Source of the DNA: a virus | Direction: 5' to 3' (one strand) | Length of the DNA stretch: 27,874 nt | IMG/VR virus record: IMGVR_UViG_3300037875_000242 | Coordinates: 1 to 27,874 of that record | Part shown: positions 6,821-27,769 of the stretch, one piece after another | Position numbering within the stretch: the first letter of the stretch is position 1 | Layout: each line of letters opens with the position of its first letter | The notes under the pieces: generated by a model | What the model was told of the DNA's origin: nothing | Databases searched by the model: none | Seen by the model: only the letters and a program-made list of their open reading frames with translations | Program-made: the position numbers and the translations under genes

Positions 6821-6848
6821 AAAAAAAAAGCACCATTTCTGATGCTTT
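6821..6848 (-). terminator. Rho-independent terminator after the 122-aa gene
   Basis: Minus-strand RNA forms AAAGCATC / GGTGCTTT around a six-base loop and runs into nine U residues (6821-6829). It follows the TAA at 6869 by about 20 bases and directly precedes promoter P1, so it separates the P2 and P1 transcripts. Confidence 0.75.
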
Positions 6849-6868
6849 CTTCGGTGTACAAGTGTATC

Positions 6869-7237: not shown

Positions 7238-7268
7238 TTTTTTCTCCAATTGTGTTTTGTTTTGACTT

Positions 7269-7694: not shown

Positions 7695-7709
7695 AACTTT
7701 CTCCTTTAT

Positions 7710-8902: not shown

Positions 8903-8904
8903 TT

Positions 8905-9105: not shown

Positions 9106-9107
9106 TT

Positions 9108-10338: not shown

Positions 10339-10339
10339 T

Positions 10340-10594
10340 TTATATACTAATTCCTTTAAATGTGGGGAATGCCCGTTTTAATACCAATTTATCCCAATCA
10401 CTAAATTTTACTTCGGGTATTAAAACCTTAGGCTTTAATTCCGATGTCATTGGGTTGTGATTCATACCACTTAAAAATATAGTTGCACCCACGGGATATT
10501 CAACAAAATCACCCATTTCGGCGAGACGCAAAAAATCACTCCTAAAAATATCAGTTAATAGTCGTAATTCATTTTTCGTAATATTTGTAAACAT
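10340..10594 (-). CDS. Unknown early protein (84 aa)
   Basis: 84 residues, no family recognised; one TGG tryptophan (SDWDKL). The frame is open to 10615, but the ATG at 10594 (MFTNIT) is preferred because AGAGAGG precedes it and because 10615 falls at the expected start of transcription of P3. The same promoter-to-gene arrangement is found at P1. Ends TAA two bases before the next start. Confidence 0.62.
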   Translation of the reverse strand: MFTNITKNELRLLTDIFRSDFLRLAEMGDFVEYPVGATIFLSGMNHNPMTSELKPKVLIPEVKFSDWDKLVLKRAFPTFKGISI

Positions 10595-10606
10595 TGGTAT
10601 TTCCTC

Positions 10607-10678
10607 TCTTATCATACCTGAAGATACAAGATAAAAATGACAAAGTCAAGCGTTTTCTGCTATTATTTTAATTTATTT
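10607..10678. repeat. 72-bp repeat, copy 2 (carries promoter P3)
   Basis: Identical to 7269-7340 over 72 bases. It includes the last five codons and the stop of the RNA ligase gene, so the duplicated stretch has become coding at its upstream edge. Identity this long points to a recent duplication or gene conversion. Confidence 0.95.
10613..10649 (-). promoter_or_regulatory. Early promoter P3 (sigma70 type)
   Basis: Minus strand: -35 TTGACT (10644-10649), 17-base spacer, -10 TATCTT (10621-10626), with the TGAC-TTT-GTCA palindrome over the -35. Transcribes the 84-aa gene and probably onward through the kinase-phosphatase. Confidence 0.82.
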
Positions 10679-11607
10679 ACCATTTTTTCATTCCATTTGG
10701 ACATCCAATGATCATCAGTTGCCCCGACATGACCAGCACGGACACATTTTCCAACCGAATCAGCGAAGTCGTCATAGTGAAATCTGTCAGCCAGACGAAC
10801 TACATAACCTTCAACCTCATCACCATCCAACCCATTTATCATCAAATCGTCTCCAATTTCACGAATTATCGATTCGTCATATATTCCTTCATATATTGTA
10901 GCGACCGGTGTTAATCCCAAATCTTCAATATAATGAAGTGTAGATTTCCATGATAAACAAATATTGTCAGCTTGCCATATTGAAAATGCTTGGAAATAAC
11001 TGTCCAGATATTTATATTTGATAGCGTGTTCTGCATATAAATTTTCACCACACACGCGCCACCCTGCAGGGAGACGGTGCCTGATAGAACCATGGATTCC
11101 CTTTACATAATTGCGACTATTGTGATGTCTACTATCCAATGATCGAGCATGGAAATGGTCGTTGTACATTGTCGTATTCTCACCATCCATTTTCACAGTT
11201 ACAACAACTTCTTTGCCAATAAATTGATCAGGATTTTCCATCATCTTGTCATCATTCTGAAGTCCTTCCGACCAAGGAAAATGATACGTTCGTGGGTACT
11301 TGAAATATTTTTGTGTTTTACCCCACTTGTCATAATCCAATCTTGGATCGTATGTCCCATCGGGGAGAATCACTTCTTCAATGCCAATAATTTCCCTCAG
11401 ATCGGCTGGAGTAATATCACCATTTTCCGCTTCCAAGTGATGTTTGGAGCACAATGAGGCCCCATTGTCCAAGTAGTACCCACCATCTTTAAACAGTTTC
11501 CTGTCCATTATATGATGTGCATCGACCGCCTCTTCACCACATATTACGCATAGTGAAATATCACGTTCAAATACCTGCATCCCAAATTCTTTTCTAGTTA
11601 GTAACAT
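10663..11607 (-). CDS. HNH endonuclease domain fused to RNA ligase
   Basis: 314 residues. The N-terminal 65 form a zinc-type HNH domain: CVIC (20-23), DAHHIMDR (29-36), DNGASLCSKHH (47-57). The rest is a nucleotidyltransferase of the RNA/DNA ligase superfamily: motif I KMDGEN with Lys139 as the adenylated residue, an Ia-like ARSLDSR (154-160), motif III VCGENLYAEH, motif IV DEVEGYVVRL (263-272) and motif V-like GKCVRAGH (287-293). The DNA-ligase OB domain is missing, so an RNA-end ligase is likeliest, pairing with the kinase-phosphatase. The start at 11607 has AGAGG before it and overlaps the preceding gene; the frame is open further up but without a ribosome site. Whether the HNH part still cuts is unknown; its metal ligands look complete. 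The 72-bp repeat begins inside its last codons. Confidence 0.85.
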   Translation of the reverse strand: MLLTRKEFGMQVFERDISLCVICGEEAVDAHHIMDRKLFKDGGYYLDNGASLCSKHHLEAENGDITPADLREIIGIEEVILPDGTYDPRLDYDKWGKTQKYFKYPRTYHFPWSEGLQNDDKMMENPDQFIGKEVVVTVKMDGENTTMYNDHFHARSLDSRHHNSRNYVKGIHGSIRHRLPAGWRVCGENLYAEHAIKYKYLDSYFQAFSIWQADNICLSWKSTLHYIEDLGLTPVATIYEGIYDESIIREIGDDLMINGLDGDEVEGYVVRLADRFHYDDFADSVGKCVRAGHVGATDDHWMSKWNEKMVNKLK

Positions 11608-11803
11608 TATGTAACCTCTTATAATCCTCGTCCTCAAATATGATTTTACCATCACGTTCCACACGGACAATATCAAATTTTATGTTTTTCTTAGACGTGA
11701 AGTCTTCATTATGTGTGCCCCAAATGCTTCCAGCATAAGTTAGATACACCCTGTTATTTCTGAATGTCAATGAATCGTATGGTTGTAAATCTTTTAATTT
11801 CAT
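11594..11803 (-). CDS. Small unknown protein (69 aa)
   Basis: 69 residues, basic and beta-rich (SLTFRNNRVYLTYAGSIWG, KFDIVRVERDGKIIF), which would fit a small SH3-like or OB-like fold; no family recognised. It ends with TAG, 14 bases inside the ligase gene. Its ATG overlaps the TGA of the upstream gene as ATGA, or lies just upstream of the real TAA if TGA is Trp. Confidence 0.6.
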   Translation of the reverse strand: MKLKDLQPYDSLTFRNNRVYLTYAGSIWGTHNEDFTSKKNIKFDIVRVERDGKIIFEDEDYKRLHNVTN

Positions 11804-12159
11804 TTTTTTACCCTTATTTCTATCTCATATAAATAATCCCAATGGCCACTTGGTTGATATTTTATGACCTTTGGATGATATTTTAATTTGTGCAATGTAT
11901 CTTCAATCCCGAAGATTGTATCCATCGCCTGTTTTACACTATCTTTGCGAGTACCCATATTTCCACGAAATGATACCGAAATATTCACAGCCTTTCGTGA
12001 TCTTCGGATTTCCACCGATCCCAATCCAGAATGATATGTTCCATTATCAGCCTGTCTGGCCACCTCTGCAACATCTGTTAAATTATCTGAATTTATTACA
12101 TCCGATATTGTCCCATCCATATCTTCTGGTAGTTCAAATAGTGTGTGTTCGTCAGTCAT
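11794..12159 (-). CDS. Unknown first gene of the P4 transcript (119 or 121 aa)
   Basis: Not recognised. Acidic N-terminus (TDEHTLFELPEDMDG), then a beta-rich part with SGLGSVEIRRSRKAVNISVSFRGN and a C-terminal strand pair. TGA at 11800-11802 is codon 120; read as Trp it adds only Trp-Asn before TAA (11794-11796). AAGAGGAC precedes the ATG, close behind promoter P4, so this is the first gene after the late terminator. Confidence 0.65.
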
Positions 12160-12230: not shown

Positions 12231-12252
12231 AAAAAAAACCCCCAATCGGGGG
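12231..12252 (-). terminator. Rho-independent terminator closing the late operon
   Basis: Minus-strand RNA: CCCCC-GAUU-GGGGG followed by eight U residues. It lies six bases after the TAA (12258-12260) that ends the 138-aa gene only if its two TGA codons are read through, so the terminator position itself supports that reading. Confidence 0.88.
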
Positions 12253-12257
12253 CAGTT

Positions 12258-12674
12258 TTAGTTTTCTTTAGATTCTCATTCGGTTACATTAATGATTGTA
12301 TATATCCGGGTGGGTATTTTAACAAACCCAGAGGAGTTCGTAAGCAATAAATTATTTCTGAATTCGTCTCAATCTATTGGAAATGTCTTATCCAGTACCC
12401 CATTGTTCTTACGCCTAATCACTTCATTAAGAGCGTTAATGGTATATAGTGTATTGGATTGTTTTTTTCTATGCAAGGAAATGGTATCCTTATTTGTAAG
12501 GTAATTTTCAGTATCCTGTTCTATATTGTATGTGCATATCAACTGGTGGAAATTGTCTTCATTTTGAAACACGTATATTTTATTGAATAGTATTTCATGG
12601 TAATCAATGATTAAATCTATCGTATCGTGCAACTGATTCCGTTTTGTGAATGAGCAAAGTAATTGCGTGTGCAT
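12258..12674 (-). CDS. Unknown protein with two TGA codons (138 aa)
   Basis: 138 residues when TGA at 12369-12371 (codon 102) and 12276-12278 (codon 133) are Trp. The sequence NTLYTINALNEVIRR, NNGVLDKTFPI-W-DEFRNNLLLT and the RIYTIINV end resemble a conserved protein of environmental T4-like phages that I recall without a function; in that family a Trp after the Ile-Asp or Ile-Asn is what I would expect. Both its tryptophans are TGA. AAAGGA sits eight bases before ATG 12674. The TAA is followed at once by the terminator. Under the standard code the protein would lose its last 37 residues. Confidence 0.82.
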
Positions 12675-12700
12675 ATTGCATTTCCTTTCGTAGCGGGGGA

Positions 12701-14596
12701 TTATTTATTTCCGATTTCCACCAATTTCTGTTTAAGTTCCGATATCTTTTCTTTAATATATGGAGCATTAGCTGGTGCCGCGTCTTTTAATTCTTCTTTA
12801 TATTCAGCAATGGATTTTTTTAGAAAATTCTTTTCTTGAAGTGGTGGCCACTGATCAATATCCATACCATATTGTAGAGCGTTAGCCATAAATGTGGTTT
12901 GCACTATTTCCATTGTAGGTGAAGCTCCTATACCCCTTGATCTGGCCGACATTTTGAATAATGGATATTCAGTTCCATCTTCGTGTTTTATTTTTATAGA
13001 CCCATCCCTTGAACCGTCTTTATAATCAATTACCAATTTCGATTCAATTTCATCCATTAACATTTTTTTATATTTATCTTTTTCATTATCTGGAGCATCT
13101 CTGAATTTTTCGAGTATATTTTTGGATTTGTTACCAAATATCGTCATCAATGTCTTTTCACTCAATTTCGACCCATCTGGTGGAATACCATAAACAGTAA
13201 TAAACTTATCCAAACTCTTATTGGGAGTAATGCCCAATGTTTCATCAATATGAATTCCATGCAAAATATGTTTTTTAAATCCATCTTCAATCTGTGGATT
13301 GTCCTTAACGGATTCCAAAAATCTAGATAGAAGTCTAGCATCAGCATTTCTCATATTATTATATACTTCCGGATTGGTTTCTCTAAAAGATGAAGATTGT
13401 GCAATCTTAGCAAACGTCCTAACATCAAGTCCATTCATTTTCCCAGATTTCCCAGAAATTCTATTTACAAATTCCGAGTCGATCCGTTTTCTATATTTTT
13501 CAAAATTTGGGCCCAATGTGTCTCGGGCATATTTGTCGTCTTTTAATAATTTTTTCAAAATTTCATTTGAATTTGCACTTTCCGCAAATGCACTGGCACC
13601 TTCATTAACCTGTTTTTTCAAATCGGCAACATATGACTTTTTACCAGCCTTTTTCTTAAATTCTTCAAGATCGGATTTGCTCACCCCACCTTTGGTTAAT
13701 TCTACCGATATTGTGTCAAATACTTTTCCATATCCACCATTGCTCAGAAATACCTGTCCGCTCTTTTTAAGGCTTATCCCAACTCTAGTTCCATCTTTTA
13801 ATTTAACAAACATATCCGAAGAAGTCCCATGACCAGTAGTATTTATAGCGGAATTTCCTTCTGGAGTATCCCACATAATTTCATCTATATTATCCATTCC
13901 AAACATGCTTTCAATAGATTTGCCAGACGCGATAGCTGCCGTTACCCATTCTTTAGTTAAAACGGATTCCTTTTTATTAGCAATATCCATTAATTCAGAT
14001 TCGATTTCATCCATGGATTTTCCACTCTTAAGCAATCTCAATGTTTTGTGAACCGCGGCTTCTCCTGCTCTCGATTCCGCTGTTCCGGCACCGACACCCT
14101 TTATTCCCGTTTGTTTCGCCTGAGCTTTAGCACCTTCTTTTGTCATCATTAGAGCGGAGTCGGTTTTTTGATGATCAGTACTAGTCAATTCTTCATGCTT
14201 TTTATCAGTGCCTTGATCCCCATTGTCCCGACTATCAGATTTTGGCTCATCTTTTCCTCCAGATTCACCATCAGATTTTGCCGGTTCTCCAGTTTTAGGA
14301 TCACCCTTGTAATAATGGCCACCCTTTGGTCCAGTTTCGATTTCCGCTCCGGCCGGTGCATCCTTATCATTCTGAACATACACCTTCCCTATTTTTTCAT
14401 TCAATGTTTTTACATTTTTCAAATTTGTAATAAATTCATTGATCGTGGGTATATCCCAATCCCATTCGGTTAATATATCCCTAAGTGCCATTTGATGACC
14501 AAAATCATTGGGATTTGGCATTCCATCGTGGACTCTGTAGCCCCACTCTATTAATAGTGCGTCCAAATATTCATCGGTGTTAAAGTCAAAACTCAT
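12701..14596 (-). CDS. Large protein with possible PD-(D/E)XK nuclease core (631 aa)
   Basis: 631 residues. After a 70-residue N-terminus comes a linker with the GPKGGHYYKG peptide, seen in several phage virion proteins, and a disordered Lys/Asp/Gly stretch. The central part has AGEAAVHKTL, then SSDMFVKLKDG and RVGISLKKSG: an acid, a second acid and a Ser-x-Lys strand, spaced as in PD-(D/E)XK enzymes. The remainder is helical and charged. It may be a virion-associated nuclease, but the assignment rests on one motif pattern. ATG 14596 is preferred (GGAG six bases upstream) over 14608. Six TGG tryptophans, no TGA, although it lies between two TGA-bearing parts of the late operon. Confidence 0.7.
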   Translation of the reverse strand: MSFDFNTDEYLDALLIEWGYRVHDGMPNPNDFGHQMALRDILTEWDWDIPTINEFITNLKNVKTLNEKIGKVYVQNDKDAPAGAEIETGPKGGHYYKGDPKTGEPAKSDGESGGKDEPKSDSRDNGDQGTDKKHEELTSTDHQKTDSALMMTKEGAKAQAKQTGIKGVGAGTAESRAGEAAVHKTLRLLKSGKSMDEIESELMDIANKKESVLTKEWVTAAIASGKSIESMFGMDNIDEIMWDTPEGNSAINTTGHGTSSDMFVKLKDGTRVGISLKKSGQVFLSNGGYGKVFDTISVELTKGGVSKSDLEEFKKKAGKKSYVADLKKQVNEGASAFAESANSNEILKKLLKDDKYARDTLGPNFEKYRKRIDSEFVNRISGKSGKMNGLDVRTFAKIAQSSSFRETNPEVYNNMRNADARLLSRFLESVKDNPQIEDGFKKHILHGIHIDETLGITPNKSLDKFITVYGIPPDGSKLSEKTLMTIFGNKSKNILEKFRDAPDNEKDKYKKMLMDEIESKLVIDYKDGSRDGSIKIKHEDGTEYPLFKMSARSRGIGASPTMEIVQTTFMANALQYGMDIDQWPPLQEKNFLKKSIAEYKEELKDAAPANAPYIKEKISELKQKLVEIGNK

Positions 14597-14624
14597 TTTT
14601 TTCTCCATTCTTTATATATAAATA

Positions 14625-15914
14625 TTACACAAAATAATTATCGATACTTTTCATATCATAATAATTTACGCCCATATCTACAGTTACCAATTTGCCTTGG
14701 CTTTCCATAATTCTCTTAATTCCAATCAGTAATTCCTTACCGTCAGTTCCGTTAAAATCGAATAGTAACGAATCATAAGTGTAAAGTATAAGCTTAGTTT
14801 CTGATCTATCCAATATAATTTTAATTTGATTCAAGTATTCATGTACATCTTCGAACTCCAGTAATTGTAACATATAATTAAACAATTTTTGTGGATTCAT
14901 ATTTTTTAAATTTGATTTGTATATGGTTTTCCCACTTATGGGAGACACTACGCTATGCATTTTATACTTATTCCACAACTTCTGTATATACATATTAACT
15001 TGTGCAAAAAAGTCGATTTTTTCAAATTCCCTATCAATTCCCCCATATAATAATTGAAACGTGATCCCTTTGCCCTCTTTATATTGCTCTGGGGTTAGCT
15101 TGTCAGTATCAAAATAAATTTTTCCAAGGTAATCGTGGGGAGATTCTGTAAATTTGAATCCTATTAAATCAGCAATGATATACAAGTGATTACCGCTGAA
15201 ATCATATTCAATCAAGTATCCATCCTTGCCAAATCTACTGATATATTTTTTTCTAGTCTCATCCGATTTATTCAATGCCGCGTAATTAGTACCACCATAC
15301 GCATTTGAAGGTCTCCCCGTACTAGTGTACATATTGTAATTCGTATATGCCATGCCGTCTAATGTCCGCAATCCCGCCGATTCTATGTATTCCATATTGT
15401 CCATATACTGATTATTATATAAATCATTTGGTGGTATGAATGTCCATATTCCCAACTCGCCAGCCAAATTTCTGCAATATTCCAAGTGCTTCATTATAGG
15501 GATGACCGAGTTCAAATTCGATTTTCTATAATGCCTAACGTGAAAAAACTGGTGTGCTGGAGTCGTGATATTATCGATCAACAGCGGCTTGTTGTTCATC
15601 TGATAGTGGAGCATATTAACATCGATTACATTGTCAAATTTGTATATATGATTCATTTCCTTTTTATCGTACACATATTTTTTCTGACCAGTCTCTAATT
15701 TGGCCAGAGCGTCATATGGAAGATTCAATGATTCTGTATGATCGAATGCCAAAATAGCGTCGGTATCACTTTCTATGGGTTTGACGTATAGGACACATAA
15801 TTTGTTCTGTAATGGGTGTACTTTGGTGTCGGACATAATGGGCACTACAATCCACTCATGGGAACCCCATAGTGCCATAAAATCATCCAATTGTGATATT
15901 GTTTCAATAACCAT
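14625..15914 (-). CDS. Divergent family-A DNA polymerase (429 aa)
   Basis: Polymerase domain of the Pol I family. Seen: the TSTGRPSNAYGGTNYAALN loop (197-215, where family A has TGRLSSxxPNLQN), motif A IEYDFSGNHL with Asp238, motif B KEGKGITFQLLYGG (279-292) and motif C LYTYDSLLFD with Asp381. The usual motif C His-Asp-Glu is Tyr-Asp-Ser here; both metal-binding Asp remain. The first 150 residues may be a degenerate 3'-5' exonuclease domain (FDNVIDVNMLHYQ) without its catalytic acids. AAAGG precedes the ATG. It is placed among tail genes, not with the helicase and SSB. It may be a replicative, repair or specialised polymerase. Four TGG tryptophans, no TGA. Confidence 0.85.
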   Translation of the reverse strand: MVIETISQLDDFMALWGSHEWIVVPIMSDTKVHPLQNKLCVLYVKPIESDTDAILAFDHTESLNLPYDALAKLETGQKKYVYDKKEMNHIYKFDNVIDVNMLHYQMNNKPLLIDNITTPAHQFFHVRHYRKSNLNSVIPIMKHLEYCRNLAGELGIWTFIPPNDLYNNQYMDNMEYIESAGLRTLDGMAYTNYNMYTSTGRPSNAYGGTNYAALNKSDETRKKYISRFGKDGYLIEYDFSGNHLYIIADLIGFKFTESPHDYLGKIYFDTDKLTPEQYKEGKGITFQLLYGGIDREFEKIDFFAQVNMYIQKLWNKYKMHSVVSPISGKTIYKSNLKNMNPQKLFNYMLQLLEFEDVHEYLNQIKIILDRSETKLILYTYDSLLFDFNGTDGKELLIGIKRIMESQGKLVTVDMGVNYYDMKSIDNYFV

Positions 15915-15950
15915 TTATACAACCTTTATAATAAGTATCAGCGTATATGT

Positions 15951-16538
15951 TTAAAACCCCAGTTTTTTTTCGATTGCTTCCTTTTTTGTTGGGACATCCT
16001 GCCAGTATTCTGTGAAGCTAATTGATATGAATGTCTCTGGAAATATGTCTCTCAGCAAGTCCAATGCTTTTATATTTGATTCTACCACATCATTCAATTT
16101 TCCAGATATGACCCAGCGTATTTGACCTTTTGTATAATATGGTAATGGATTTCCAAATTGGGATTTATTGATCTCGATTAGTGGAGAATGATTGTCGTTT
16201 AATCGTTGAACAAAATACCTGTCCAAATATCCATTTTTGATATCTTTTTTCTTCACTTCCACGGCGTATGGTGTTACAAACCAGGTGGATGCTATATTGC
16301 CATTTCTGGACTTTTTATATTTGGCGAAATCGGTACTACCCTTTTTTAGTGTAATTATTTCTGGAACAATTGTGTCCGTAATATAATATTCAATTTTATC
16401 CTTTGTGTAATATATAGAATATGGCAAGTCGGCTCTAACCCAGTTACCATTGTCATAGGTAAATTCATTTATCCCAGTGATACGACCAGTCAATTTACGA
16501 TCCATTTTATCTCTTATATTTTTAATTTTTTTTATCAT
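15951..16538 (-). CDS. Unknown protein of the tail module (195 aa)
   Basis: 195 residues, beta-rich. Segments KLTGRITGINEFTYDNGNW, LPYSIYYTKDKIEYYITD, LDRYFVQRLNDNHSPLIEI and TKGQIRWVISGKL resemble proteins I have met in tail or baseplate regions of environmental T4-like phages, with no known function. The start is either 16538 (MIKKIK, poor ribosome site, two codons after the hub stop) or 16505 (MDRKLTG, weak AGAGAT). Four TGG tryptophans, no TGA. Confidence 0.65.
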   Translation of the reverse strand: MIKKIKNIRDKMDRKLTGRITGINEFTYDNGNWVRADLPYSIYYTKDKIEYYITDTIVPEIITLKKGSTDFAKYKKSRNGNIASTWFVTPYAVEVKKKDIKNGYLDRYFVQRLNDNHSPLIEINKSQFGNPLPYYTKGQIRWVISGKLNDVVESNIKALDLLRDIFPETFISISFTEYWQDVPTKKEAIEKKLGF

Positions 16539-16541
16539 TTT

Positions 16542-18989
16542 TTATAATGCATCCGGAATAATATAACCCAATCGTCTCATTAATTCAGCTTTCGTTTCCG
16601 AGTTCTCAGTCCTTTCAATTTGTTCTTCATTTTCGGCCTTTTCATCTTTTAGGAAATTTCGGTCGGATTTTTCCGTGTCAAGTTGATCCCTTACGGATAT
16701 TCTCATTTTTCCCACAATGGAAGTTTTTCAGCTGGACGCGTCCAGCTCTTGTGTAGAACTCATAACCTGAAATAATACCCGATCTTTATATTGGGAAGGC
16801 AGATAATTGCTTGTAAAACAATTTCCTGGGAAAATCCCAGATATACCATCCAATGTTAATGAGATTTCCAACGCGACCATGGGATCAAAATCAATAGAAA
16901 CCGATTCTTTTTCATCGTATGTAATTAAATATTTCATGACATCCAATCATGGAGTGTCCTTGGTATTTAATAAATTCCCCCAATATCCATAAACACTGCC
17001 AGTCAATGTGTCTTTATCTTCCGATTTGAAATTAAAATCAAAAAATTGTTTTTCGGTAAATTTCAACGTATGTATGCTTTTGACAGTTTCGGCGGTTTCA
17101 TCATCGTGATTTTCTGAATCTGACCCTTTTTTATCAATGGCCTCAATACCAACATCGGGACCACTTTCCGTATCAAATTTGGAATTTACCCCAGCGGATT
17201 TATTACCAAATTTATCAAAATTTCAACCGGGTTTAATATCATGAATCAGCCCGTCTTTATCACCAGGAGCACTACCCAATTTACTAGCAGCGACAATTTT
17301 AATGCCTCCCATTTGGGAAGGTGACGTAATTTCCTCAGCATTATCCCACATCATCGCCATAGCCATTTCATTTGTAATTTTAGCATTTAATGATTGTGCA
17401 GTAACAATACTATCCTTACCCATAACTGGGAAATGGAATAAACCACCAGTAACAGTTTCTCAATATTTATCCAATTCACTCGGAATTTTAAGCAACGATT
17501 TTACAGATTGTTTGGTAAGATTCATGTCTACAATCTTTAATGTACCGGGTCTATCTGGTGCAGATACCAATTGCAAATCTCATATTCCAACATTTTCATT
17601 CATTCTCTCAAACAATTTTTTAAGTGCACTGGTGATATCAGACGCGTCATTGAATACATTTGTTATCAAATAATTCCAATTGAACATTATATTTCGCATG
17701 TATCCTATCTTTAAATTTTTATATTCAGCTGGATCATCAGTTACTTGGAACGTTGGGAAATCCTTATTAAAATCCCGCAATATCGGATGAACATCAGTAA
17801 GATCATCCACATTTCTATGCGATTGTCCAGGTAAAATAAAAAATTTATAATCTGGAGAAATCAATTTATCATGACTTGATATTTTAGTTGATTGTCATGC
17901 CAGCTGATCTGGGGGCAATCCTTCAGTTTCAGCCAATCCAGCCGTTTCGATTGTGTGTTGATCCCCGTTGTCTTTTAATATAGGTTCTATACTTCGAATT
18001 GAACTTATTACTACACCGTGAGCGTCCACTTTGCTTAAATATTTATTTAATATATTATCTTCTATTCATCCCCATGATATATATAATTCATGTGATCTCG
18101 GATCGGCACCGGTAGATGGTTCAAATCTATTCTTAATTCATTGTAATGGCATTCCTTCATTGCCAATTCCACCATCATCCACATGTTTAAATTTTTCAAG
18201 TTTGGTTGAAATGTCCCTTAGAAATGTTTGGAAATTTTGTTTAAGTTCAACTTTTCGGTTATCATTTTTATCCGTTTTTGCGACATTTATATTGTCCACT
18301 GGAGTAATTCGTTGTTTTAATATGTCTAATCCCATTGAAGAAATATTGGTAGTGCAATCGATTCCCCCATCGTCTCTAGTCGATCATTCAAAATTGGTTA
18401 CGAGACCAATCATACCATCATAAGTTCCATTGGAATTAAATGAATTTTCCATCATTTTTTTATGTGCCAATATCATATCTGGGCTTTTTTCATTTATATC
18501 ATGTAATACCATATCATTGTCCGAATATGAATATCCCCATTCTAAAATAACAGTTCTACCCGGTTTTAAAAAATATGGAGTATATTTGGTAACATCGTCA
18601 AATGACCAACAAGTCCAATTAATAGTAGCAGTACGCAATGTCGCCAATGTATTTTTATATTCAACACTAATACTTTTTACTCCAGGCATTGGTCTGTACT
18701 GATTATCACCAGTATTTCTAGGAGAATTATACATATCCTCAAAACCATAATATGCTTCTTGATTTTCTTTTAACAATCCCCCACCTATTATTACAGGTTT
18801 ATCATCTTTGATAAGCCCAACCATCCGGATTCAAGTCGATTTTGCAAAAATGTTATTTGCGTCGGCTTTCTTTTTCCCAGTACCATCGGTCTGCGGACCT
18901 TCAAATAGTATGCCTTCTCTATTTAACAACTTTTGTCGTCTGTGCAATTCCGCCCTAATTTTACTATGTATGGGTTGTAGATTAATCAT
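16542..18989 (-). CDS. Baseplate hub-like protein with ten TGA codons (815 aa)
   Basis: One 815-residue protein from ATG 18989 (GGGGG ribosome site) to TAA 16542. Ten in-frame TGA codons, at residues 53, 202, 284, 308, 365, 470, 510, 589, 681 and 754, cut it into fragments under the standard code. The left-hand ends of these codons (16728 up to 18831) are all in one frame, so no frameshift is involved. Seven other tryptophans are TGG. The C-terminal region, ALEISLTLDGISGIFPGNCF then LPSQYKDRVLFQVMS and SW-KTSIVGKMRI, is the pattern I associate with phage baseplate hub proteins (gp27/gpD-like), where a Trp usually stands before the TT/TS strand; TGA occupies that place. It follows gp53 by two bases. 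Hub identity is inferred, the reading frame is firm. Confidence 0.85.
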
Positions 18990-18991
18990 TA

Positions 18992-19294
18992 TTAAAACCC
19001 CCTATTTAATTCTTCCAAATCACTAAATATTTGTGCAGTGTCGGTGGGTATTCTGATATCCAGTCCAGATTTTAATGTAAAATTTGCATCATCTATATCA
19101 TTGGCAAGTGCTATTATCCACCACAACGATGTGTCTCCATAATATTTAAATGCAAGCAAATCTAGCCTGTCACCTTTTTTGGACATTGTGAAAATATCAG
19201 AATCCAATATTGGAATCTTGGGATACAATGTAGTCTTAAATACACGGTTTTTTAAAGAATTTCTTTTTATATTGGTGTGTGTATATCTACCCAT
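18992..19294 (-). CDS. gp53-like baseplate wedge protein
   Basis: 100 residues. Central KKGDRLDLLAFKYYGDTSLWWIIALANDID followed by SGLDIRIPTD is the LysM-like signature of T4 gp53 and its short relatives, which join baseplate wedges into the ring. T4 gp53 is 196 residues; short versions like this one are common. GGGAGG lies nine bases before the ATG, inside the end of the preceding gene. Ends TAA, which is followed by the hub ATG. Confidence 0.8.
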   Translation of the reverse strand: MGRYTHTNIKRNSLKNRVFKTTLYPKIPILDSDIFTMSKKGDRLDLLAFKYYGDTSLWWIIALANDIDDANFTLKSGLDIRIPTDTAQIFSDLEELNRGF

Positions 19295-19297
19295 TTT

Positions 19298-22200
19298 TTA
19301 ATCCTCCCACGATGGATCAGACCATGAAAATGGTCCATCGCCCTTTCCAGATTGCCCCATTTCCGCGAACAATTCCCTTAAATCCATCCCATCGGAATGC
19401 CTATCGGGATAATTGCCATTTGGATTATCCAAATATGCAGTGGAACTTTTATTATTGTTATTTTTATAATCCAGCCAATCCAAATCATAATGCTTACCCT
19501 TTTGAGCCGGCTTGTGTTTTCCAATGTATTTATACCCAACACTAACACTTAAATGCTTGGGCAATTTGAAATGATCATCCAATTCCCAAGTGGTGTTATC
19601 TTCTACCGTTATTGATAAGCTGGTTAAAAATCCTGGAGCCCCCGTTCACATATTACCAATGGTCAATTCGGCAAATGGAGATACCATTCGTTCCATATCA
19701 CTATTGGAAAAATCTTTTCAGCTGGGGTAACACATTCCAATTAAATAATTCATTTTTTCTCATAAAATTGGCAGTTCCTGTTTCGTCTTTGGATATACAT
19801 TGAAATTGAAACTTATTTCCCTGTCCACTCCAGCGTATGTATATACTTTATCGGGGCGGCCTATGTATTTTTCTTCTGATCAATCTGGTGTAACACTATC
19901 CGATATCCCAGACAGAATGGCTCTGAAAATGATTCATTTATTATTGACCACATCTTTAAATTTAAATGGAATGAAATCTCGTACTTCTAAATTGTTAATT
20001 TCCTTTGGCTCTTTTCCATTAACACTCCCGTATGGTAGGGCATTAACTTTGTCAACCTTACTTGTCATAAGCTTACTCGATCCCAAATCGGCCTTAATAT
20101 GACTAAAACCAGCCTTTTTCAAACCGGCATTAAATGTCTCGGGCCTAAAGAAAAATCCATCTCCGGTTGTTTCAGACCCATCTGTAAATTGTCTAAGAAT
20201 TCCAGCATTACTTTGATCTCCAACATCAATTACAGCAAATTTTTCATCATCACCAAATTGATCTTTTCGAATTCTATCTATCTCTCTACTTGCTTCCGCA
20301 TTATTGCCCAGTAGACTTCCCAGTTTTGATAATAACGGATTTGTTCCCGGATTATCTATAATTGCTTCTTCTTTTCTGAAATGATAATTCAATGAATTTT
20401 CACCCCAATCAACAAGTTTTGTATCTAAAGGATTGGCCGCTTCGAATTCCAAAACGGTAGATGATACAAGTGGTGATCCAGTATTCCAATGTCGGTTGAT
20501 ATGAACTGTAGGCGTTATAGAACCCAATGACAATGGATTCCATGTTCTAGTTTCTTCCTTAGTATTAAGGGTCTGCAATGCCACTTGTTTTATTCCAAAT
20601 AGAACACCTTTAGTCGAAAGTATAAATTTGCCGATTCTGAATACATCGGCAATAGTTCTTGATATGGATGTAATTAATCCACCACGTACTATGCCCTCAT
20701 CAAAAGCGCCTGTATTACCCAATCCATATTTATCTCCTATATCATGAAGGTAAAATGGTTGGTTAAATCCTATATCATTATGTCCATCTCCAATTCTATA
20801 ATTGAGTTCATCACCGTCTTTAAATCCACGGCCGTAATAATTATCCAAATTTGTAGCATCATCATTTCCCCACGAATCTTTATGCAAATCTTTTAAGCGT
20901 GATTGATCACCACGTGTGTTATTTGTTATTGAGCTGCCCTCTCCAATTTTGGCCACGGAAGGAGAATAAGCCTCCCCCCTATAAAAACCAGTATTCAGAA
21001 ATTTTGGTGAATTTTCATTCTGTTTGCCCAATTGAAAATTTCTAGTATATGGTTCCATTGTCAATGTGGTACTGGTATCAAAATATTGAATTCTAGATCG
21101 TCGTTTGTATGTTTTTGTATATGACTTGCCTATACTGAATGTTTTAAACCACGAATCCGTAGGACTTGGAGTATCTTCTTTTGTAGGTAAAGCGATATTG
21201 GAATTCAATGACGACAATGCTTCATATGCATGCCCAAATATATCCGTAAATGTCATGTTTATTGCATCGCCGGTTTTAAATCTACTGTCTTTAATTGGTC
21301 CAAATAAGCTGGCAAATTGTAATGTTGATGTAGGTTTAGTAGACGCTTTATTTGGTAGGTATGTTCCAGCCCAATCAATGTTTTCATCCGAATCGGTCAG
21401 TATTCTAGTCTGTAATCCATAATTACCAACAAAACTATATTGTTTTGGAATATGAAATGTAGGTTGTTTTCCATCCACAAATGATGTATTGATAGCATCT
21501 TTAGTTGTGGATCATACTGGAGCAGTCGCTATTCTAGATAATTGTCTAGCTCTAATAGTAGTTGGATTGTGTGCGGCCAAATTGACATCACCCTCAATCC
21601 AATGCAATGAATCTTCAAAATCTACCTCTGGATAATGATCAAAAAATGTTCGGTCTGTTTTCTCATATGATATTGGAACACCAGTATCAGCTATGTCTCC
21701 TGTCATATATTGAACAGAATCTGCAAATGGAATCGCCGTGTGATGATTAAATGCCGCTCTAGTTTTAGCGTATGAAATTGGCAATGTTATCGCCGGAGTG
21801 TCATAAACAATATCAGGATTAGTTACCGATGTTTCAATTGGAGGAGCATATCTACTAATATAACTGGCAATTGGAGTAGTCATAAAATCACTCCCATGTG
21901 CGCCCAATGTACTGGGTGTCGTATTTATTGCCGTTTGATATGTTTCACCAGCGGTTGGTCCAGTTAATGTAATCATACTTACATTATGAGTTAATGAATC
22001 TGAAAATCCCTGCAGATTACTTATGTTATTAGCAATTGGAGTAGTCATAAAATCGCTGTCATATGCATTAGGTGCCGCAAAGATGATAGGTTCCAATGTA
22101 TCTAACCCCACAGTATGTCTGGTTGTACTTAGTGCCATTGTGTCATTTGGTGCCAGTTTTGAGTCCCCGTATGCCATATTAAAAGTAAATCCAGCGGGCA

Positions 22201-22552
22201 ATGTCCCAGGTCCCCATTCTCCAGTAACCCCACTAAAATAATTAACAGGACCAGTTTGAATACCTTCACCAGTTGGGTGTACCTGACTGCCCACCGCTTC
22301 CAGCATATTAGCTAATGCACTTTCATTGGGTCTATCAAATTCTTTATTTCCAGTAACAGTATATCCATGACCATCATTAAATGATTGTGCATTACTTGAA
22401 TTACCAACTCCAGTATCAAGTTGAGAATGCTCAATTGAATGTGCAGGCATGGATGGAGTTTCATTTGATAATCCACCATGGCGTCCACCATGTTGACTTA
22501 AATTGTCTCCAGCACCAGCTGATAAATCACTTGTTAAATCTATAATACTCAT
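19298..22552 (-). CDS. Baseplate / tail-tube-initiator-like protein with six TGA codons (1084 aa)
   Basis: One 1084-residue protein from ATG 22552 to TAA 19298. TGA codons fall at residues 347, 873, 891, 931, 945 and 969; twelve tryptophans are TGG. The first 350 residues are low-complexity, with repeats of DFMTTPIA and 'thrice-repeated' TxISYEKT/ISYAKT-like units. The C-terminal 200 carry AELTIGNM-W-TGAPGFLTSLSITVEDNTTWE and LPKHLSVSVGYKYIG, a pattern I know from tube-cap and baseplate proteins in the gp48/gp54 position (TIGD..PGF..SLS.T..D...WE...LP....VSV). It directly follows the tape measure, as gp48 does in T4. The ATG overlaps the tape-measure TAA. Assignment of the N-terminal part is unknown. 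Confidence 0.82.
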
Positions 22553-25254
22553 TAGTCCGATACTCCCAGTTCTCCAACTTTACCAGTCAGTTTGTTCATC
22601 AAATCCTTATTTTGTTTTAATAATTCCCTATTTACACCCACTATTTGAGTTAATAATTTATTCGTTTCGGCCATATCAGTCGCTTGATTAACAGTATTTC
22701 CATCTCCAGAAACAGTCACATCCGACGATCCACCTATTCCAGTCAATTTGTCCAATACAGGCAAAAATGGAGACAATAATAATGCCCCGCCAGCCAGTTT
22801 TGCCATACCTCAACCAAGTTTACCAAATGCTTCTCCCAAGCTTATTATGGAAGATGTCATTGGGGCCAATTTTGTAAGTATAGGTTCAAAACTAAGAAAT
22901 CCAGCAGATAACATAGTAAATCCAGTTCCTATCGCCTGAATAGCATATCCCAATACCAATAATCCGCCAGCCATTATTACCATTGCTGCCGCACCAGCCA
23001 AAATTGCCACAGTTCCAACACCACTAGACATTATTGCCCCCAATGCTAATACCGCTACTACCAATCCACCCAATGCTAAAGCGGCCTTACCCAAACTGGG
23101 CCAATCCACTTTATTAAATACCACCAATGCCTGTGCGGTTATGTATAATGCACCAGCCACAATTACCATTGCTGCAGCACCAGCCAACATCTTTTTGGGA
23201 TTAATTCGTTCCACGAATCCAAGTCCAGCCTTACCCTTTGGCTTTGGAGCTTTTGCAAATCTTCCTTTAGCATCTCTTAATCTGCCAGCCTTATCTGTTG
23301 ATAATCCACCCTTTGAAGAGGCCATTCCAGATATCAAACCTTTCATTTTGCCCAACTTTGTGAGCATTCCATTGCCAATAATTCGTTTTCTGAATAATAA
23401 AGCAACCGCAGCGAGAGCTGTCAGGCTCGCCAATAATCCTGGAGAATATTCATACAGTTTTTTAATACCAGTGACCAATAAACCAACGGAGGCCACCATC
23501 AATGCAAATTTTGCCGCTATCGCAATAACTGGTAGTAAAAGTACGCCGACTGTTATAGCTATTATTTTTCAATTTTTAACCATTCATTCTAATGCTGGAG
23601 CTATATAGTCAGTTATCCACCCACTCATCGTTTCCAATATTGCAGGTATTTTTTCACCAATGGACTCTAACATTGGTTGAAATCTTTTCTTTAAAGCCCC
23701 AGTAATGTCGTTCCACGCGGTCCCGATATTCTTTACCATTGCAGCGTGTTTTTCTGCAGCGGCAGTTTGATCGGTTGACATATGATTTAAATGCTCTTGA
23801 TTCAATACCATTTTTGTTAATTCTTCAACTCCCACACCAAATGCTGCAGCTAATTTTTTCCTTTGGAAATACTGCATATTTTCCAGTTCCGCTTGACTAC
23901 CAACTTGTTTTAATACCTCTCGTTGCATTCCTGCCAAGTCACCTGTAAATGCCAATTGTCTAGCTTTATCCGTATTGATATTTCTGCCTAATAGAATTGA
24001 TGCTTCCATTGAAGATTCGATTGAACTTTCAAAATCCAATAGACTTTCAGCCATTTTTGCAGTCGTTGCAATACTCAATCCCAATTTACGAGCTTCGATT
24101 GCCGCTGTAAATAAATTGTCCCCACCGTCTTTTGCGTATGTGGCGAACATTTCGGTGTCCCCAGCCAAATCTTCCATAACTGCCGCTGGAGCAACTTTGT
24201 TTGCTCGAGCCAATTCACCTACCATTGCCAAACTATGCATTGATGCTGAAAAGGATGAACCTGATACAGCCATCATCATTTCAGCCAATTTAGCTGTAGA
24301 TTCGGCGGATACCCCATATTGGAATCCCAATAATTTCATTTTCATTAAATTTTGACTTGTCGCTATATCAAGTGAACCAAACTCAGCCAATAGTGCTTTC
24401 GCTTCCTCTCGCGCAAACAATATGGCCGGTCCAAATTGAATTAATTGACCATATGAAAATCCAGTTTCATTACCGAAATCAACCATTTTCTTACCCAATG
24501 CTACTAACCCCACCCCTATAGCCAAAATGCCAACTTTAAGGGCCGTTATTGGATTGGTGACAATGGATATCAATTTGGCCTTTATATCACCCCATTTTTC
24601 CTTTTGAGCTTCAATTTTTGAATTTAATTCTGTATTTTTTTTGTTTATCAAATCATGCATTTTTGACTGTGCTTGCATACTTTTAACATTTTTGATTTGA
24701 GCGTTTATCAGTTTAATATTATTTTCAACACCTTGTTCCGTAATATCATATTCACCGTCGGCCAGAGATTTTCTAGTTTTCATCAGATCGGATAAATGTG
24801 AAGATAAATCAACCGTTTCAAATTCTTCAGAATTTAAATTCTTCCGGTTGTGTACCATAGCCAAACCCAAATCCATAGTTTCACTAGATAAATCTCGTAT
24901 TTTTTGCAGTGATTCCGATTCCTTTAGGGTAATTCCTTGCAGAGTTGCCATATTGTCAGTTCAATTGACTGTATTTTGTAGAATCTTTTGTTGTGACTTG
25001 CTAAGATTGGCAAATTTTTTCCCGAGATTTTCTATTTGAGTTTCGTTTGTAGCGGTGTTTTTTATTTTTCTCTTTAATTCGGCATTTTGCTTTTTTATAT
25101 TTTGATATGTTACTTCTTCGGCCGCACTACGTTTTTTACCCTTTTCTGCCAAAGTATCGGCCTTTTCAATTTGCTCATCAAGCTTCGTGATTTGAGCTCG
25201 CATTAAATCAAGTGTTTCTTTGGCCTCAATATTTCTAGAAGTTCGTTTTGCCAT
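22552..25254 (-). CDS. Tape measure protein with four TGA codons (900 aa)
   Basis: Sets tail length and is ejected through the tube. Read from ATG 25254 (AAGGA before it) to TAA 22552 it is 900 residues, with TGA at residues 98, 557, 562 and 815 and four TGG tryptophans. The N-terminal 250 are charged coiled coil (KLDEQIEKADTLAEKG, KKQNAELKRKIKNT); several hydrophobic segments follow (GILAIGVGLVALG, IIAITVGVLLLPVIAIAAKF, LVVAVLALGAIMSS), and a second hydrophobic block ends before a polar C-terminus. This coiled-coil plus membrane-active layout is typical. At about 1.5 angstrom per residue the tail would be roughly 135 nm, an inference. T4 gp29 is 590 residues. Two TGA codons lie only five codons apart (LE-W-MVKN-W-K). 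Confidence 0.88.
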
Positions 25255-25277
25255 TTTATTTAATCCTTACCAATCCA

Positions 25278-25517
25278 TTACCGTTTGAAATATTCAGACA
25301 TGAATTCTTTTTTTGTAATAACCCTTTCAAGTTTATCAATATCCACTTCTGCCCAAGCAGCATTTGCCGATTTTATTCGTCGATCCAATTCTTTTCTATG
25401 TTTTTTTATTTCTGGATGATTCTTTATATACTTCTTGGCACCTTTCGTGTCATTTCTAAGTAGAAATGTTAAAAAGTTATCCAATATATCCATGATGCCC
25501 TCATTTAATTTACTCAT
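25278..25517 (-). CDS. Small basic unknown protein before the tape measure (79 aa)
   Basis: 79 residues, helical and basic (KGAKKYIKNHPEIKKHRKELDRRIKSA). GGAGAAAATT precedes the ATG, which lies inside the end of the preceding gene (8-base overlap). Position between the gp26-like pair and the tape measure suggests a tail assembly helper; nothing in the sequence proves it. One TGG tryptophan. Confidence 0.62.
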   Translation of the reverse strand: MSKLNEGIMDILDNFLTFLLRNDTKGAKKYIKNHPEIKKHRKELDRRIKSANAAWAEVDIDKLERVITKKEFMSEYFKR

Positions 25518-25785
25518 AATTTTCTCCGATTAATTTGGCAATAATATCCGCGACGATATCTGATTGTTCGTCATTTATAGCATGTAAATCTGATAAATAA
25601 TGCCCAAATAAATGTCTAGCCTGATATATGGAATCGCATGATTGTTCTTTTATTCTTATAAAATATGGAGGATTGGTAGTATCACATTTATCATCAACCA
25701 GTGCCGGCACAATGTCCGGCACTTCGATTAAATATTTACTACATAACCGTTCAAATTCATTCTTAATTGTTTTGTATGAACTCAT
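25510..25785 (-). CDS. Small unknown protein (91 aa)
   Basis: 91 residues: a helical protein with PYFIRIKEQSCDSIYQARHLFGHYLSDLHA and an acidic C-terminus. AGGATTGAACT precedes the ATG. It lies between the presumed frameshift product and the tape measure and may be a chaperone or hub-assembly protein. No tryptophan, so it says nothing about TGA. Confidence 0.6.
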   Translation of the reverse strand: MSSYKTIKNEFERLCSKYLIEVPDIVPALVDDKCDTTNPPYFIRIKEQSCDSIYQARHLFGHYLSDLHAINDEQSDIVADIIAKLIGENYE

Positions 25786-25823
25786 AGTTCAATCCTATCT
25801 ATTTACATATAAATATCAAATTC

Positions 25824-26048
25824 CTAAGTTTTCAGTTGTGGACCACGCGCAATACCCGAATTCTTATTTTGGGCTTTATCGTGTGCATCTTGTTCATCTT
25901 TGATAGATTTTTGAATCATTTTTATATAGAAGCGGCGGAGCCATACGGGCATGTGATACACCTCAGTATGATTGAATCCGCCGTTCCCATGATAACACAA
26001 AGTATAGATTTCTTCGTGTACGGTTACTCTATACTCTGGCGGAAGGCC
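25824..26048 (-). CDS. Overlapping frame fused to gp26-like protein by presumed frameshift (74 aa)
   Basis: An open frame of 74 codons, offset +1 from the gp26-like gene, beginning right at a run of seven T and ending TAG. Its protein GLPPEYRVTVHEEIYTLCYHG then EVYHMPVWLRRFYIKM has a conserved look (FFGLP, MPVWLR), which I recall in the matching small gene of other T4-like phages. Between the last conserved codons and upstream there is no ATG, GTG or TTG with a ribosome site; reading two TGA as Trp allows an ATG at 26090, but that has none either. A shift at the T-run would give gp26 residues 1-251 plus these 74. Confidence 0.72.
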   Translation of the reverse strand, partial: GLPPEYRVTVHEEIYTLCYHGNGGFNHTEVYHMPVWLRRFYIKMIQKSIKDEQDAHDKAQNKNSGIARGPQLKT

Positions 26049-26802
26049 AAAAAAACTGGACCGTCATAGGGACAGTCACCTCCTCAGCATGAGCACACAA
26101 TGAACATTCAAAGTTGTATGACATATCAACATCTGGTGTGATATTTCTAAGGTGTTCTCTGAATGGCATTGAATCTACTGCCAATAAGCTGGTATCTACA
26201 AAGTTATTAATGAAAGCTCGTTCTGAATTTCCATTGACACTTGTAATCACTTTTTTCAGTCTGGTTGTGATATCACTTTCAACGTCGTTTTTACTAATTT
26301 TCTTTAGACCCTTGAGTTCGGCATCAATTTCACGTTCATCCTTTTGGGTGAGCAATTTGAATTTAATATCAATTTTCGACTTTGGAAGTGTTCAACTGAA
26401 TTCATTAATTCCTTTTTCAAGACCATCAAAACTGACAGCTTTTTCAACTAATAGGGTTAGATCGACACTATCCTTATTATGTTCTGAACATGCAGGACAA
26501 TCGACTTCAAAGTTATAATCTTTGCCATATCCTAATACGCGGGCCGCTACCATCAATGCATTTTTGTCTCCAATAAGCATTGAATCTAAATCAATAGATT
26601 TGTCAACTACGAGGGACTTTAATAACTTGTCAATAACCACCCCCCTTCTTATTAAGTTTTGTGATGTTAAAATATCTTCATCTTTTGCGGTCATATACCG
26701 CATCTCTAATTCGCCTGAGCTCAACGGATTATCTTCTGCATAGAAGAATCCTTTACTCGGAAGCGAAACAATTTCGCTAGGAAATTTCATTTCTTCGCTC
26801 AT
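26029..26802 (-). CDS. gp26-like baseplate protein / tail assembly protein (257 aa)
   Basis: 257 residues. The N-terminus EMKFPSEIVSLPSKGFFY, MRYMTAKDEDILTSQNLIRRG and two CxxC sites (FEVDCPAC, FECSLCAH) match the T4 baseplate protein family that includes gp26, and it ends MTVQFFWPSARV as its relatives do. TGA at 26392-26394 (residue 137) joins an ORF that would otherwise stop at NEFS to WTLPKSKIDIKFKLLTQKDE. AAAGGAG precedes the ATG; TAG ends it. Placed just ahead of the tape measure, it would correspond to the lambda G-type chaperone position, and the T7 run near its end could give the longer product. Confidence 0.86.
26049..26055 (-). other. T-run, candidate programmed frameshift site
   Basis: Codons read CAG TTT TTT TGG in the gp26 frame. 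A +1 shift (or -2 slip) here leaves TTT TTT and continues GGC CTT CCG, entering the 74-codon frame. An AGGAGG lies about 23 bases upstream, too far to be a classical stimulator. Confidence 0.6.
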
Positions 26803-26852
26803 AGTAACTCCTTTTGTTTTTGTTTGTTTTTGTTTGTTCTATTTAGAACCTC
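26803..26852 (-). promoter_or_regulatory. Gap before the gp26-like gene with CTAAATA
   Basis: About 50 bases. Minus strand has TCTAAATA, one mismatch from the T4 late promoter TATAAATA, followed by an A/C-rich leader of AAACAA repeats and AAAGGAG. A late start here is possible but rests on one short match. Confidence 0.25.
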
Positions 26853-27341
26853 TTATTTAAATTTCTTTGCATATTTAGACCAATTTTTCTTGGCGTGTTT
26901 CACAACTTTATCAAATCTTTTAGCATCTTCTTTTTGACGTTTTTTATTATCGTCGTGCCAATAATCACCCCACTCAATCCCATCATAATTTAATTTAAAT
27001 GGAACTTTATCTACCGTATAACTTCTTTCTTTGCCATCCCACTCACTCATTGAAATTTCACATTTGCCATTAAGTTCAACTCCAAATTGAAGAAATTTCT
27101 TTTCACCCATTTGAAAGCTTTTCCATAAATATATTCTAGTATTTCCTACTGAACCATATTGTTCATTTTGCATGTGCCAACCAAGCCCAGCCCCATGTGT
27201 TTGTTGGTATCTAAGTTGCATTTCATTGTCATTGTATGATTGAATAAGATCATCTGGAAGTGGTTTGGATTTTTTTGGAGCGTCCTTAATACTTGTAAAT
27301 TTCGGACCTTCCATTAAAGATGTGAGCTTGATGTGCTTCAT
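26853..27341 (-). CDS. Unknown protein of the tail module (162 aa)
   Basis: 162 residues; begins MKHIKLTSLMEGPKF, and has six TGG tryptophans and a basic C-terminal third (AKRFDKVVKHAKKNWSKYAKKFK). No family recognised. The ATG overlaps the TAA of the 142-aa gene (TAATG), so translation is coupled. The basic tail could bind nucleic acid, but that is inference. Rich in Trp, yet no TGA, so the codon choice is not uniform within the late block. Confidence 0.62.
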   Translation of the reverse strand: MKHIKLTSLMEGPKFTSIKDAPKKSKPLPDDLIQSYNDNEMQLRYQQTHGAGLGWHMQNEQYGSVGNTRIYLWKSFQMGEKKFLQFGVELNGKCEISMSEWDGKERSYTVDKVPFKLNYDGIEWGDYWHDDNKKRQKEDAKRFDKVVKHAKKNWSKYAKKFK

Positions 27342-27769
27342 TATCTAATCCATTTGGGGATAGATGGTCAGCGACTTATACGTGCATTATCTTTATTTTG
27401 CCAAAGAACGTCATCAACATCCCTTTTATCAAACCCAGTCAATTTCTTATATATTTTTTTCCACTCTTTAGTTTTGGGTTTAAGTTCTTCACCATTAGGA
27501 CCTATTAAATATCCTTCCAATGATTCAAGCTCTCAACCAGGTAATCCTCTCATTTGTATATGATCGGATGAAACCATCGGTTTCTTTTTCTTGCCTGAAG
27601 CTTTCCCAGCCGTAGTATCTTTTCCACCTACCCTGACTTTTGTAGAATCACGCATTTTATGCTTCTCTTTATATGCATCAAATTCGGCTTGATCTTTGAA
27701 ATCGATTTCATCCAATTCAACAAAATTTTCTCATTGTTTAGCTATTGATTCATATAATCCCTTTTTCAT
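27341..27769 (-). CDS. Unknown structural-region protein with three TGA codons (142 aa)
   Basis: 142 residues from ATG 27769 to TAA 27341. TGA at residues 13, 79 and 134 (27731, 27533, 27368) and three TGG tryptophans. FKDQAEFDAYKEKHKMR and the TKVRVGGKDTTAGKA stretch form a linker that recurs in many T4-like virion proteins from environmental phages, as I recall. The rest (PNGEELKPKTKEWKKIYKKLTGFDKRDVDDVLW) is unrecognised. Under the standard code the ATG would make only twelve residues, so the whole protein depends on TGA being sense. Confidence 0.78.

Follow-up and report, generated by a model that had tools for sequence, protein, structure and literature searches.

Phages that read UGA as tryptophan (Trp) have been described from several settings. 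crAss-like phages are reported to carry this recoding chiefly in putative late genes, although a suppressor tRNA could not be found in every case (Yutin et al., 2021; PMC7886860), and UGA is also Trp in theta-ribozyme phages (PMC10879173). Among phages assigned to genetic code 4 in INPHARED and a human gut catalogue, a Sup-TCA tRNA was reported in only 11 of 73, and 22 of the 27 from INPHARED infect Mycoplasma or Spiroplasma and so may share the code of their host (Cook et al., 2024; PMC11210395). Phages of Gracilibacteria and Absconditabacteria read UGA as glycine (Gly), a code common to phage and host (PMC10746230, which also relays the late-gene idea of recoding). Here we analyzed IMG/VR record IMGVR_UViG_3300037875_000242, a linear viral sequence of 27,874 bases (the window, meaning the whole of this stretch), in which an initial annotation had joined six structural genes across 26 in-frame TGA codons and taken TGA to be Trp, as known from mollicutes and from recoded phages of metagenomes. 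Alignments with relatives show UGA to be a Trp codon in the virion genes of this lineage, and comparison between species shows its strong depletion from the replication genes.

The lineage resembles the crAss-like phages in that UGA is Trp mostly in late genes, in code switching at short phylogenetic distance and in a suppressor not always being found (PMC7886860). Unlike them, it is T4-like (Portal_T4, T4_baseplate, gp32 and UvsX), yielded no suppressor in the records searched, keeps TGG as the majority Trp codon and has had the constraint measured between orthologues. With the Gracilibacteria and Absconditabacteria phages it shares a sense UGA, but the residue is Gly there and Trp here. With the INPHARED and gut code-4 phages it shares the reading of UGA as Trp, and it has the marks of such a phage: in-frame TGA in core genes, including TerL of relatives, no other internal stops, columns aligned with Trp in relatives that lack in-frame TGA, and a location mainly in late genes. 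Coverage-gain rules of 5-10% (PMC10879173) or 10% (PMC13037316) are given for recoding screens. In contrast, coding coverage here rose by only about 4 points under code 4, from 0.902 to 0.943 in the window, from 0.921 to 0.960 in the near-identical contig G002 and from 0.890 to 0.926 in a second recoded species, G001, with a simple open reading frame (ORF) caller that differs from theirs. Because this gain is small and the TGA share low, density-based screens might miss the lineage. No T4-like phage lineage with UGA as Trp was named in the literature titles searched, a coverage outside which most subscription papers and preprints fall. UGA as Trp in late phage genes is thus already known; what is new is a T4-like lineage, present in several metagenomes, to which this recoding extends and in which codon exchange is asymmetric between orthologues.

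In-frame TGA codons and their amino acid

The window holds two gene blocks, both on the minus strand. Virion genes and their neighbors run from 27769 down to 12258, closing at a terminator-like hairpin just beyond the 138-amino acid (aa) gene, where a terminator had been annotated; replication, repair and small genes run from 12159 down to 1. Our recount gave 26 in-frame TGA codons in six virion-block genes, distributed ten, six, four, three, two and one as initially reported, and a 27th in the UvsX gene. All seven genes begin with ATG and end in TAA or TAG, again as claimed for the joined proteins, and have no internal TAA or TAG; the reading frames are interrupted by TGA alone. The features are as follows.

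27341..27769, minus strand: 142-aa protein, three TGA (codons 13, 79 and 134)
26029..26802, minus strand: T4 gp26-like baseplate protein, 257 aa (PF12322, E 2.8e-11), one TGA (codon 137)
22552..25254, minus strand: tape measure protein, 900 aa (PHROG 4372 and 167), four TGA (codons 98, 557, 562 and 815)
19298..22552, minus strand: 1084-aa protein, initially called baseplate-like, six TGA (codons 347, 873, 891, 931, 945 and 969)
16542..18989, minus strand: 815-aa protein, initially called hub, ten TGA (codons 53, 202, 284, 308, 365, 470, 510, 589, 681 and 754)
12258..12674, minus strand: 138-aa conserved protein, two TGA (codons 102 and 133)
12238..12253, minus strand (read 12253-12238): terminator-like hairpin separating the TGA-rich block (12258-27769) from the replication block (1-12159)
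3685..4809, minus strand: UvsX recombinase, 374 aa (PF00154), a single TGA at codon 39 (DWISTGSS)
1..12159, minus strand: early/replication block with RNR, DnaB-like helicase, 5´-3´ exonuclease, UvsX, gp32-like single-stranded DNA-binding protein, PNKP, RNA ligase and small genes, several of them named from G002

The names tape measure, T4_baseplate (PF12322) and UvsX stand, while hub and baseplate remain unverified for the 815-aa and 1084-aa proteins, neither of which had a Pfam or PHROG profile match; the 815-aa protein showed weak tblastn likeness to Flavobacterium phage proteins annotated as carboxypeptidase. Markers of a T4-like myovirus comprised PF12322 and a UvsX PHROG in the window, PF08804 on G002 and PF07230 on G001.

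Contigs from other assemblies, picked by an exact 24-base flank so that altered flanks would escape, agreed on TGA at each of the 27 sites (86 of 86 readings by site and contig, three to six contigs per site), which makes sequencing error a very unlikely source of the TGAs; the possibility, raised with the initial annotation, that the codons are not TGA was not borne out by these readings. That the TGAs mark pseudogenes or errors has nothing in its favor except the TGAs themselves, and we give it next to no credence: in addition to the identical readings and the exclusive use of TGA, coding signal runs on beyond most of the window TGAs (examined on G002), and the other species keeps Trp at 22 of 29 TGA sites. 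Homology excludes chance as the explanation.

A comparison of homologue columns for Trp against Gly, cysteine (Cys) and selenocysteine, proposed alongside the initial annotation, strongly preferred Trp. For 38 TGA sites drawn from two species (some homologous sites being counted twice), with W at the TGA sites of the queries, the summed score against relatives outside the recoded lineages was W 73.6, Y 30.1 and F 25.2. Both Gly and Cys fell outside the top six residues, in line with the initial preference for Trp over Gly and offering nothing to a selenocysteine reading; as controls, TGG, GGA, TGT, TGC, TAT, TTT, CAA, TCA and AGA each gave back their own residue. In an alignment of the 27 window sites, which had X instead at TGA and in which a single locus can supply several rows, 19 of 27 sites had TGG-coded Trp in one or more relatives from outside the window species (18 with TGA masked as X, the gp26-like site coming from a separate alignment), some of the relatives, such as G001, being themselves recoded. 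In loci that do not belong to the recoded lineages, W stands opposite three TGAs of the G001 terminase, in 45 of 45, 45 of 45 and 40 of 42.

The three arguments from context made initially all hold by column counts. Of 80 loci aligned at the position before ISTGSS in UvsX (column 39), 28 have W(TGG), 42 have F and 10 have TGA, with the TGA present likewise in G001 and in a third recoded member, G010. The C-terminal site of the 815-aa protein has TGG in five and TGA in one of six rows, and the FPI-DEFRN site of the 138-aa protein (codon 102) has TGG in 39 and TGA in two of 41 rows. The column at codon 133 of the 138-aa protein holds L (8), T (4) and W (3), and that at gp26-like codon 137 holds F, Y, V or W for the most part in relatives.

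Some observations count against Trp or support it less well. Five of the 27 sites had no TGG-coded Trp in relatives outside the window species (815-aa protein, codons 284 K, 589 Y/E and 681 Y/N; 1084-aa protein, codon 347 L; tape measure, codon 562 L), with one W at 815-aa site 589 added by the 38-site scoring; for the three TGA sites of the 142-aa gene no relative aligned. Gly appears at two of the 38 scored sites (tape measure 562, four of four rows; sheath 133, one row among those shown), and one TGA of the recoded contig L121 faces a G001 Gly in the 815-aa protein. The retention of Trp at 22 of 29 TGA sites compares with 164 of 185 TGG sites (p = 0.07), the TGA sites being mostly in faster-changing genes. 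A Gly code of the Gracilibacteria/Absconditabacteria type (code 25) could draw on the two Gly sites and on the tRNAs found in G001-G005, all of Gly type, but given the ranking of W first and Gly outside the top six, and with none of the tRNAs read having a UCA anticodon, we regard it as extremely improbable.

UGA in virion and replication genes

TGA and TGG numbered 26 and 49 in the virion block of the window and 1 and 49 in the replication block (Fisher p = 3.8e-6). The replication-block count left out six of seven TGAs, namely two gene ends and four that precede the likely start or fall in doubtful short ORFs; counting the two gene ends gave p = 8.6e-5 and counting all seven p = 0.004. The many TGAs in antisense or spurious ORFs were excluded from sense counts.

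Orthologues of G001 and the window species provided a direct comparison. Among columns with Trp in both, TGG and TGA were exchanged at 20 of 114 for the virion region, at 6 of 82 for the surface-sugar region and at 0 of 98 for the replication block, whereas third-base exchange at lysine, glutamate and glutamine (K/E/Q) codons of the same genes was 342/1184, 134/463 and 316/963 (33%), respectively. The contrast within the replication block, 0/98 against 316/963, gave a Fisher p of 2e-16. Three of the four TGA/TGA columns in that block were judged not to be sense codons; with these counted in, the comparison is 4/98 versus 33/114 (p = 1e-6). Trp exchange was similar to that of K/E/Q in a virion gene set chosen by function (12/37) and lower across the whole virion region (p = 0.009), for functional classes and region limits that were fixed after the per-gene TGA counts were known. 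Between G010 and G001, Trp exchange was 16/57 in late and 2/25 in early genes (K/E/Q, 144/425 and 84/199). The early TGAs of G010 include gp32 codon 27, RNR codon 46 and the shared UvsX site, so exclusion from replication genes is not absolute. These codon counts show a strong depletion of UGA from the replication block in two species, and one that is less absolute in a third. The asymmetry of 0/98 against 20/114 makes "recoding for late genes" a measurable constraint that can be assessed in the same way in other recoded phages. Neither the confinement of UGA largely to one gene class nor possible TGA stops in early genes figured in the initial annotation.

Mobile genes were rich in TGA. An ORF within the G001 replication block carries five (weak TnsA-like and NUMOD3 matches, both below the Pfam cut-off), and four of the five TGAs in the G001 portal gene (L101 8088-11264) fall in an intein (PF14890, residues 105-513). 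The intein of this T4-type portal also contains a weak HNH match.

The data further suggest, without going beyond suggestion, that sheath and tube avoid UGA. TGA occupied 1 of 15 sheath-plus-tube Trp columns versus 29 of 90 in other late genes for G001 against the window species (p = 0.06), 2/13 versus 17/38 for G010 (p = 0.10) and 0/9 versus 12/33 for L121 (p = 0.04); all three comparisons include G001 and are not independent. For the major head protein, G001 has no TGA and seven TGG, and the more heavily recoded G031 has one TGA and five TGG. The comparison of sheath plus tube with all other late columns replaced a first split into abundant and low-copy proteins (1/22 versus 28/71, p = 0.0014), which relied on T4 stoichiometry, grouped probably low-copy parts with sheath and tube, and omitted 12 of 105 columns.

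How UGA may be decoded

The tRNAs found in G001-G005 are of Gly type (anticodons UCC and ACC; a further one has an anticodon loop of 6 bases). No tRNA-Trp(UCA) was detected in the records searched, none of them shown to be complete, and no tRNA scored over the cut-off in another 13 records from the recoded lineages, in four relatives, or in G024 and G031. The release factor RF-1 family was found in none of ten records (nine of recoded lineages, with G023 not shown to be recoded) and the tryptophanyl-tRNA synthetase (TrpRS) family in none of five. Extension past the right end of G001 recovered G001 only; extension from the left end reached the recoded contigs G024 and G031. Other records scanned with these two carry many tRNAs, with anticodons partly read, and are not shown to be recoded. 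An odd third tRNA was considered as a UGA decoder and set aside on inspection of the alignment, its acceptor end and loop looking Gly-like by the known identity elements of tRNA-Gly.

A conserved tRNA-like gene lies beside one or two tRNA-Gly genes in G004 and G001 (L094 1501-1572; L098 1501-1573). It has a 6-base anticodon loop, UUUCCA, is not called by ARAGORN, and retains two T-stem mismatches in both species, while its acceptor and anticodon stems show compensatory changes. G002 has, alongside an unusual tRNA-Gly cluster, a PNKP-type kinase-phosphatase and an RNA ligase, which correspond to window positions 7710-8669 and 10663-11676. In T4, such a pair mends cleaved tRNA.

Our preferred reading is that UGA works as a Trp codon at some cost and that its decoder lies beyond the sequenced phage DNA, probably in the host, although our confidence in this reading as a whole falls a little short of even. 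UGA would be decoded more slowly than UGG, or with losses to a release factor that still competes. Selection would consequently remove it from early, and perhaps also abundant, proteins but leave it in low-copy late ones, in mobile endonucleases and in an intein; the evidence of cost in abundant proteins is suggestive. The decoder would come from a host in which UGA is Trp, wholly or in part; a location outside the phage DNA is suggested because no tRNA-Trp(UCA), RF1 or TrpRS was found in the records searched. The few TGAs at early gene ends, with TAA or TAG close by, might be leftovers of an older stop meaning or still be in use. Three recoded lineages, G031 with its separate TerL branch among them, come from one metagenome, 3300035698, as expected if a host type is shared. 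UGA in the G010 gp32, RNR and UvsX genes also counts for cost because a strict late-only code would forbid it. One possible precedent is the bacterium XS4 (Fastidiosibacteraceae), which, according to PMC12213064 and PMC13092985, reads UGA as Trp, keeps its RF2 gene and has a tRNA-Trp(CCA) with a 4-bp anticodon stem, such that a host of this type could provide a UGA-reading tRNA-Trp without a UCA anticodon. XS4 is, however, a cell and not a phage, and we found no link from such a host to the window phage. If the decoder does belong to the host, the lineage points to uncultured bacteria with UGA as a Trp codon.

A number of points count against host decoding of a costly codon. A single scan of phage-like contigs of GTDB genomes by UvsX gave 47 stretches that matched the pattern, none of them a relative. 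As no genome is shown to be complete (G001, at 140,003 bases, is linear), a suppressor could sit in a missing part. Cost alone may not explain 0/98, since many early enzymes are not obviously abundant. In virion columns TGA makes up 20% of Trp codons although A-ending codons make up 74% for K/E/Q, and because of this gap a host with full UGA-to-Trp reassignment sits badly with a costly codon. G010 has TGA in the sheath stabilizer (two of three columns), a 161-aa protein (one of three) and the tube (one of five), and the first abundance classes showed no difference in G010 (5/19 versus 13/29, p = 0.24).

Two TGAs in the replication block of the window probably end genes.

9619..9621, minus strand: TGA probably ending the 248-aa gene, with the next ATGs at 9629 and 9626, a Shine-Dalgarno-like GGAGG and an in-frame TAG eight codons on
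11800..11802, minus strand: TGA probably ending the 121-aa gene, overlapping the next ATG (11803-11801), with TAA one codon on

The initial claim that the window needs no stops other than TAG and TAA is therefore not certain. The arrangement at the 248-aa gene is conserved in G001, while the stop of the 121-aa gene is TAA there; several other G001 genes look TGA-ended, overlapping the next start and with a backup stop nearby. Such ends fit a dual meaning of UGA but also old stops tolerated thanks to a close backup. Absence of TGA stops was dropped as a discriminator between models because relatives also seldom use them (a per-gene mean of 6% across 25 genes, some of these with a single locus).

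These gene ends bear on an alternative that we consider nearly as likely as a costly host-decoded codon, and possible without being favored: the host uses the standard code, UGA is stop early in infection, and the phage makes it sense late, by way of an RF2 inhibitor, a tRNA modifier or a suppressor tRNA encoded in sequence still missing, so that virion proteins appear only then. A late switch explains the absence of exchange in the replication block better than cost does, and accommodates the end of the TGA-rich block at a terminator, UGA in the G010 tube and sheath stabilizer, and TGA gene ends that overlap starts in early-type genes. Also in its favor are the excess of TGA within two codons of ORF ends in G001 (6/53 versus 7/468 for TGG, p = 0.0008) and the reported recoding of late genes in crAss-like phages (PMC7886860). 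The near-end excess is missing from the window species, however (1/36 versus 6/259), and the sense UGAs in early genes of G010, the TGA-rich endonuclease-like ORF inside the G001 replication block and the failure to find a suppressor tRNA, RF1 or TrpRS in the records searched all speak against a phage-driven switch.

A combined reading, in which UGA would be stop at some early gene ends and Trp inside low-copy late proteins, with no phage suppressor tRNA, RF1 or TrpRS and with the uvsX UGA gating the recombinase, seems unlikely to us. The position of the single uvsX UGA is shared by three recoded lineages, and a dual meaning, if true, would have it gate recombinase.

Recoded relatives

Near-identical contigs of the window phage occur in several metagenomes, whose habitats, going by their IMG numbers, may include seawater and Antarctic lakes. 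A search of phage records for a near-DNA match to the window (query of 25,000 of the 27,874 bases) gave none. The second recoded species, G001 (IMGVR 3300035698_008372), is 83% identical to the window species in UvsX and 85-89% identical in terminase to contigs L182-L184, L223-L225 and L231, which were assigned to the window species by common samples and similar identity, with no contig joining them to the window. Further recoded members are G010 (3300035698_011925), L120/L121 and G024 (3300024336_000041).

A terminase tree of 33 rows groups the window species with G024 and G001 (support 98/99), and the surrounding phages have no in-frame TGA in terminase, save one with a single TGA. G031 (3300035698_011250), with 151 TGA and 99 TGG across its called ORFs, branches elsewhere, and so recoding probably arose twice as judged from this tree. 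Against this, the separate placement depends on a long branch that drew a tool warning, and the well-supported branches alone require only one change. Two RCC1-repeat proteins of G031 (L337 12745-14934 and 14951-18232) have 21 and 35 in-frame TGAs next to 11 and 18 TGG.

Other genes of the lineage drew our attention. A short family-A DNA polymerase-like protein (window 14625-15914; weak, E 2e-4, below the Pfam cut-off) lies among the virion genes of a genome that has a family-B polymerase too. The replication block of G002 includes a Mom-like DNA-modification gene and a DruA-family protein (L109 11404-12171 and 17856-19013). Finally, several otherwise different proteins of G001 and contigs L231/L235 begin with a near-identical leader, MKKSELRQ(I/M/L)IREE(I/L), which is possibly a head-targeting signal.

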